A stretch of 64,000 bases of DNA from positions 308,404-372,403 of IMG/VR virus record IMGVR_UViG_3300032782_000001; one strand, 5' to 3'. The notes beneath the pieces were generated by a model. The model saw only the letters and a program-made list of their open reading frames with translations. It did no database searches and had not been told where the DNA came from. Made by a program: the position numbers and the translations under genes. The stretch is from a virus. Of the stretch, positions 29,113-29,241 are shown piece after piece (position 1 is the first letter of the stretch; the number at the start of each line of letters is the position of its first letter).

Positions 29113-29241
29113 GCCGGACATGAGGACTGGCGTCCTCGATTCCCCCATACGGAATTTTCCCGGTACCGCTCCTCGGTCCTGAAAGGGACCACCTAACGGT
29201 TCCTACAAGCAAGGAAGGTTCGATTCCTTCGTCCGGCTCCA
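29113..29241 (+). tRNA. tRNA-like RNA (CAU anticodon position) with Y-RNA-like hairpin in place of the variable arm; module B
   Basis: A complete cloverleaf can be drawn. The acceptor stem is GCCGGAC/GTCCGGC (7 perfect pairs) with T then an encoded CCA at 29239-29241. The D arm is GAGG/CCTC with loop ACTGGCGT. The anticodon arm is ATTCC/GGAAT with loop CCCATAC. The T arm is GAAGG/CCTTC with loop TTCGATT. Between the anticodon and T arms are 58 bases instead of 4-24. They fold into helix GGTACCG (29162-29168) with CGGTTCC (29197-29203), a 6x6 internal loop (CTCCTC / ACCTAA) and helix GGTCC/GGACC capped by TGAAAG, followed by TACAAGCAAG. Position 33 is C, not U, so decoding is doubtful. It looks like a tRNA fused to the same module as in A and C. 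Confidence 0.6.

Follow-up and report, generated by a model that had tools for sequence, protein, structure and literature searches.

The nearest point of comparison for the RNAs described here is YrlA, the bacterial Y RNA (RF02553; structure 6CU1). Genuine YrlA was present at E 1e-10 in 3 of 274 genomes that are presumably gammaproteobacterial, the class name being that of the centre genome, a Pseudomonas contig. The order in these real matches is Y strand, CUAC, T arm, acceptor 3' strand, short cap, acceptor 5' strand, D arm and Y strand, and one copy neighbours a gene that matches Pfam vWA_Ro60 and, at a score slightly below the cut-off, TROVE. Published reports describe YrlA as a circular permutation of tRNA (PMC11472068) that recruits PNPase and modification enzymes (PMC8394870). 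Phages with Ro60/Rsr-like proteins have also been reported, and Y RNAs are suspected in them (PMC7824862, PMC7765460, PMC12282133); a tRNA carrying a Y hairpin in its variable loop is not described in the accessible portions of these reports or with PDB entry 9l5y. The open-access literature that was searched holds no description of such an RNA either.

The window, that is, the whole stretch of 64,000 nucleotides analysed here, comprises bases 308404-372403 of a 436,316-base virus record. Three structured RNAs (A, B and C) lie between the end of an E1/ThiF-like gene at 28978 and a strong terminator-like hairpin (Table 1), and the whole A-B-C stretch folds far better than shuffled sequence (z -6.4; 0 of 100 shuffles as good). 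A TTGAC lies at most 70 nt past the E1 stop in 17 of 47 related loci. Rfam at relaxed thresholds also returned miRNA matches at 29367-29418, which are the terminator hairpin and were dismissed as chance.

Table 1. Features of the RNA cluster and of the genes upstream of it, in window coordinates
Feature	Coordinates	Strand	Basis or remark
Ro60-like protein (helical region and vWA)	23647..25593	+	top Foldseek hits Ro/TROVE; Pfam VWA_2 only
Conserved operon protein (340 aa in most loci)	26068..27090	+	homologues in same order; no Pfam match
JAB-type protease-like protein	27100..27654	+	Prok-JAB 2.2e-5, just under cut-off
Small conserved protein at the place of a ubiquitin-like protein	27700..27969	+	between JAB and E1; no Pfam match
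E1/ThiF-like adenylating enzyme	28394..28978	+	ThiF 2.3e-22
Promoter-like TTGACA-17-TATTCT, upstream of RNA cluster	28982..29010	+	sequence
RNA A: Y stem and outer stem, short loop instead of tRNA	29028..29106	+	fold z -5.6; Y helix 8/8, outer stem 7/8
RNA B, form I: tRNA with Ro-type hairpin in variable loop	29113..29241	+	arms read from sequence; R1 78.4 bits, E ~1e-16
RNA B, acceptor stem	29113-29119 / 29231-29237		7/7 paired
RNA B, D arm	29122-29137		
RNA B, anticodon arm	29139-29155		
RNA B, anticodon loop CCCATAC	29144..29150	+	position 33 = C (29145); CAT at anticodon place; sequence
RNA B, extra bases at variable loop	29156-29213		
RNA B, Y hairpin	29162..29203	+	8-nt strands 29162-29169 / 29196-29203; 6/8 pairs
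RNA B, Y hairpin interior: CTCG	29172-29175		
RNA B, Y hairpin interior: capped stem	29175-29190		GAAA cap
TACAAGC motif, Y helix to T arm	29204..29210	+	common to forms I, II and III
RNA B, T arm	29214-29230		loop TTCGATT
RNA B, 3' tail TCCA	29238-29241		CCA encoded
RNA C, form III: Y stem around ordinary-order tRNA domain	29242..29361	+	outer stem 8/8, Y helix 7/8
Terminator-like 15-bp hairpin, downstream of RNA cluster	29376..29408	+	sequence

RNA B has the anatomy of a tRNA, with a 7-bp acceptor stem, a D arm with GG in its loop, an anticodon arm of a 5-bp stem and a 7-nt loop, and a T arm of the TTCRA type. It departs from a tRNA in a variable region enlarged by 58 bases and in the C at position 33, where U is ordinary. 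The first-pass annotation of this DNA had described the four arms, the encoded CCA, the insert and C33, and the sequence bears all of them out. It had also held that the module in the insert recurs in A and C; the same 8-bp helix, ACAAGC and CTCG are indeed found in 29034-29100 and 29242-29361. The predicted fold of RNA B beats 200 of 200 dinucleotide shuffles (z -3.7). ARAGORN, a check which the annotation had proposed, called no tRNA in the window, RNA B included, and Rfam at gathering thresholds gave no match at the RNA B locus. At relaxed Rfam thresholds, a tRNA score was obtained solely for the domain nested in RNA C (29268-29335, 30.8 bits).

RNA B is one member of a family of chimeras, here called form I, which within the reach of the searches made is previously undescribed. 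When the virus genome was searched by BLAST with the locus itself, a second cluster came to light about 238 kb away, inside a tRNA array, with five more form I RNAs (L018 1211-2113, equal to 99210-100112 of the genome). In viral contigs, 24 stretches matched a DNA pattern. Since a MAFFT alignment of 44 form I RNAs misplaced the anticodon arm, 19 uniform relatives were chosen for a covariance model, R1, from which RNA B was left out. R1 detects RNA B with high significance and counts exactly six form I RNAs in the genome of this virus. Over 28 sources, it returned 62 matches of at least 46 bits, separated by a gap from the next best at 32 bits. The form I set used below comprises these model-based 62 and 5 more; the 69 candidates of a loose script, some of them spurious by eye, were not counted. 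In 18 of the 21 other records, each searched in full, R1 reaches at least 46 bits; the exceptions are G015, G020 and KX853510. Among 185 bacterial genomes, R1 gave one match at E 1e-4, of 35 bits only. The DNA pattern occurred in 19 stretches of cellular genomes, and R1 reached 46 bits in only three MAG contigs (L047, L056 and L062), probably phage that had been binned. BLASTN of B and C together against phage records gave no match.

Form I resembles tRNA (RF00005) in its acceptor, D, anticodon and T arms and sometimes in its CCA, but it has 50-70 extra bases in the variable region, and RNA B is missed by both ARAGORN and Rfam. An encoded CCA is a minority state, found in 14 of 67 members, in 18 of 56 RNAs of a second set and in 145 of 356 tRNAs called by ARAGORN. 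The tRNA array of the virus also holds a group I intron beside the chimeras (76.6 bits, L006 551-781). A bacterial RNase P RNA (299 bits) lies on a 362,937-base virus contig (L010 18032-18396); as a co-encoded processor, RNase P RNA was rejected, being present in 1 of 20 records only.

The inserted hairpin is, on the aligned sequences, a strongly covarying helix. Standard pairs fill 379 of the 504 Y-helix cells of the 63 RNAs (of 67) that could be parsed, against a mean of 280 and a maximum of 310 in 2000 shuffles of partners, and all eight helix positions show several pair types each. A second set of 56 further distinct RNAs comes from contigs found through the protein described below; these RNAs were picked by R1, whose model includes the Y helix, and the 49 parsed have 276 of 392 cells paired (shuffled mean 190, maximum 221). 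In the 19-RNA alignment, two-sided changes occur in 32 of 38 pairs as opposed to 20 in shuffles. The first-pass view of the variable arm as Y-RNA-like is well supported: the helix covaries, is common to neighbouring Y-type RNAs and in many phages has a Ro60-like gene as its neighbour. The encoded CCA and the loss of U33 that went with that view are not family-wide.

Three architectures combine the tRNA and Y modules. Form II is a circularly permuted tRNA within an open Y stem, which is the published topology of YrlA. Form III, exemplified by RNA C, is a tRNA of ordinary order nested in an outer stem and a Y stem. Form I is the reverse permutation: its tRNA acceptor ends are open, and the Y stem, closed by a cap, protrudes at the variable loop. 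Inside the Y stem of form II, the order is T arm, acceptor 3' half, cap, acceptor 5' half, D arm and anticodon arm (last in those read), which is the YrlA order with a separate anticodon hairpin added. Forms I and II hold the same Y and tRNA modules, but in form I the ends lie at the acceptor and a cap closes the Y stem, which makes form I a circular permutant of form II; since real YrlA matches have the order given above, form I likewise reverses the YrlA permutation. One shared two-domain shape is expected for the folds of forms I and II.

Forms II and III were collected by a scan that gave 33 real hits and 13 in three shuffles, so that chance would account for about four of the 33; hits that fell in coding sequence or were much too long were removed by eye. 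The 21 form II RNAs are hand-picked scan hits without near-duplicates and implausible lengths (for example, L018 2397-2553, L008 15820-15959 and L010 9277-9440). All 21 form the capped acceptor stem with 6 or 7 of its 7 pairs, as opposed to a mean of 11.6 and a maximum of 17 RNAs when the 3' strand is swapped from another RNA. The D arm follows directly after the capped acceptor stem in most of the 21, and in 7 the cap begins N-CCA, as though the 3' end of a tRNA were retained in the loop. In the 15 form III RNAs kept for alignment, 94.9% of cells are paired against 70.7% when shuffled, a percentage biased by the use of the Y helix and outer stem, though not of the D, anticodon and T helices, in detection; two-sided changes number 122 cells as opposed to 33. 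Permuted tRNA genes occur in algae and archaea, and there too the 3' half precedes the 5' half. Unlike these genes, form II sits inside a Y stem, and its circularisation may never take place.

The likeness to YrlA extends to several details. YrlA and the phage RNAs alike couple a Ro-type stem to a tRNA mimic that has T, acceptor and D arms. In both, the Y helix is followed by a CUACA-like motif, CU(U/C)G opens the 3' strand of the outer stem, and a Ro60-type gene lies near. YrlA is permuted and has a capped acceptor, whereas form I follows plain tRNA order, includes an anticodon arm, leaves the acceptor ends open and caps the Y stem. This agrees with the first-pass remark that YrlA has no open full acceptor stem, as real YrlA has the T arm before a capped one. 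The Rfam YrlA model (cut-off 69 bits) gave no match in the window and none up to E 0.5 in L009 and L010, and its best score in the genome of this virus, 23.2 bits, fell over ordinary tRNAs. As the model is blind to the phage RNAs, RNA B is not filed as YrlA.

The form I RNAs are associated with a conserved operon whose order in most loci is Ro-like gene, 340-aa protein, JAB, small protein, E1 and then the RNAs. The small protein may be ubiquitin-like, as its position between JAB and E1 suggests. Ro-like and E1 genes are each present in 18 of 21 records, the Ro identity being by fold only, and G007, G014 and G015 have neither. G007 and G014 have form I with no Ro-like gene in the contig, and KX853510 has the operon with forms II and III and no form I. 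When the search was begun from the protein, a Ro-like alignment gave 60 loci, and 43 of 58 newly fetched have form I in the fetched flank; 13 of the 58 are on contigs that the RNA search had already yielded, and among the remaining 45, some of them near-duplicates, form I lies near the Ro-like gene in 32. The cassette of JAB, small protein and E1 (window 26068-28978) is conserved with a Ro-like gene in many huge phages. In KX853510.1, form II- and form III-like RNAs lie beside the E1 gene (L043 9667-9495 and 9342-9218, minus strand), and the Ro-like gene is annotated solely as a misc_feature.

The identification of the operon protein as Ro60-like is remote and by fold. An alignment-based model (pLDDT 73, pTM 0.45) was used, and a single-sequence AlphaFold model (pLDDT 43) was set aside. 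The four best PDB hits of Foldseek are 9kop (TROVE), 1yvr and 1yvp (Ro) and 9l5y (phage Ro60), with E from 9e-8 to 2e-6 over 517-550 columns and TM-scores of only about 0.2. Sequence methods see essentially the vWA domain: in Pfam VWA_2 alone passes the cut-off, with no match to TROVE or vWA_Ro60; the clear hits of a PDB sequence search are vWA domains only; a VIA-align of 50 rows covers only that domain; and cellular Rsr aligns over 36 columns only. The metal-site motif DxSxS of this domain (D427, S429, S431) is invariant in 10 of 10. Given the low TM-scores and the sequence methods, the modelled fold makes a good case for Ro60 but does not amount to proof.

We consider it probable (about 0.6) that RNA B is a Ro60-associated Y RNA in inside-out circular permutation, a scaffold or bait that presents a tRNA shape rather than a decoding tRNA. 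The Ro binding, partners, possible charging and function of form I are our proposal. A Ro60-like ring of the phage would grip the Y hairpin, and the tRNA body with its open acceptor end would recruit tRNA-recognising proteins such as nucleases, modification enzymes or charging enzymes. Proteins caught by the chimera may then be acted on by the E1, JAB and ubiquitin-like proteins of the operon. A fuller version is RNA-guided protein tagging, in which the chimeras would be baits with their own tRNA identities on the Ro60-like ring, the host or defence tRNA-binding proteins so caught would be modified by the cassette, and forms I and II would be interchangeable; we regard it as quite improbable.

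U33 is present in 27 of 54 form I anticodon loops of 7 nt and in 24 of 45 of the second set; it is present in 340 of 356 tRNAs called in 23 loci by ARAGORN, a program that favours ordinary tRNAs. Several members (for example, L010 14917 and L029 4947) are missing the anticodon arm. As U33 is lost in about half and the arm in some, decoding appears unlikely for many members, but not for all. The first-pass inference that RNA B does not translate is plausible; U33 is absent in 27 of 54 and 21 of 45 family loops. GUA is among the commonest triplets at the anticodon place, and its bearers never have U33 (9 of 9 and 5 of 5; examples in L027, L041, L022 and L056, with loops such as CGGTAAA); the loss perhaps avoids queuosine or recognition by nucleases.

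The strongest rival, though still unlikely, is that the chimeras are decoys that mimic particular tRNAs, often without U33, to soak up anticodon nucleases of the host or further defences directed at tRNA; the Y hairpin would serve only to stabilise them. The uniform lack of U33 in GUA members would suit such a role, as would the anticodon loops, which mostly keep A37/A38 and plausible anticodons. The authors of a YrlA study suggest that its tRNA domain may competitively inhibit an anticodon nuclease (PMC7790460). However, a covarying Y helix and linkage to the Ro/E1 operon are superfluous for a pure decoy, and the members that have no anticodon arm are hard to reconcile with one.

That the chimeras are working tRNAs, whose hairpin is tolerated or is spliced as an intron to leave an ordinary tRNA, is decidedly improbable. 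Half of form I has no U33, in contrast to nearly all ARAGORN tRNAs; RNA B has no match to any intron family (Rfam, relaxed thresholds); and the insert covaries and stands as a stem of its own in forms II and III, from which splicing would yield no free-ended tRNA. The complete arms, the CCA encoded in B, the half of loops that keep U33 and the presence of a group I intron in the same tRNA array speak for this explanation. Chance insertion of a Y RNA into functionless tRNA pseudogenes, which dense tRNA arrays could produce by recombination, is scarcely credible, as the covariation already makes it hard to hold and 67 and 56 members share one insertion point, conserved motifs and compensatory changes.

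Under the Ro60-associated scaffold reading, form I would link Ro60 ribonucleoproteins, tRNA mimicry and a phage ubiquitin-like cassette. Two circular permutants of one tRNA/Y RNA design, side by side in one virus, are a natural experiment on RNA topology, and because the chimeras differ in tRNA identity, what phage Y RNAs recruit can be tested directly. The family also suggests that non-decoding RNAs are among the 'tRNAs' counted in huge phages. Elsewhere in the window, an apparently non-coding stretch at 31000-31130 has several short inverted repeats by eye.
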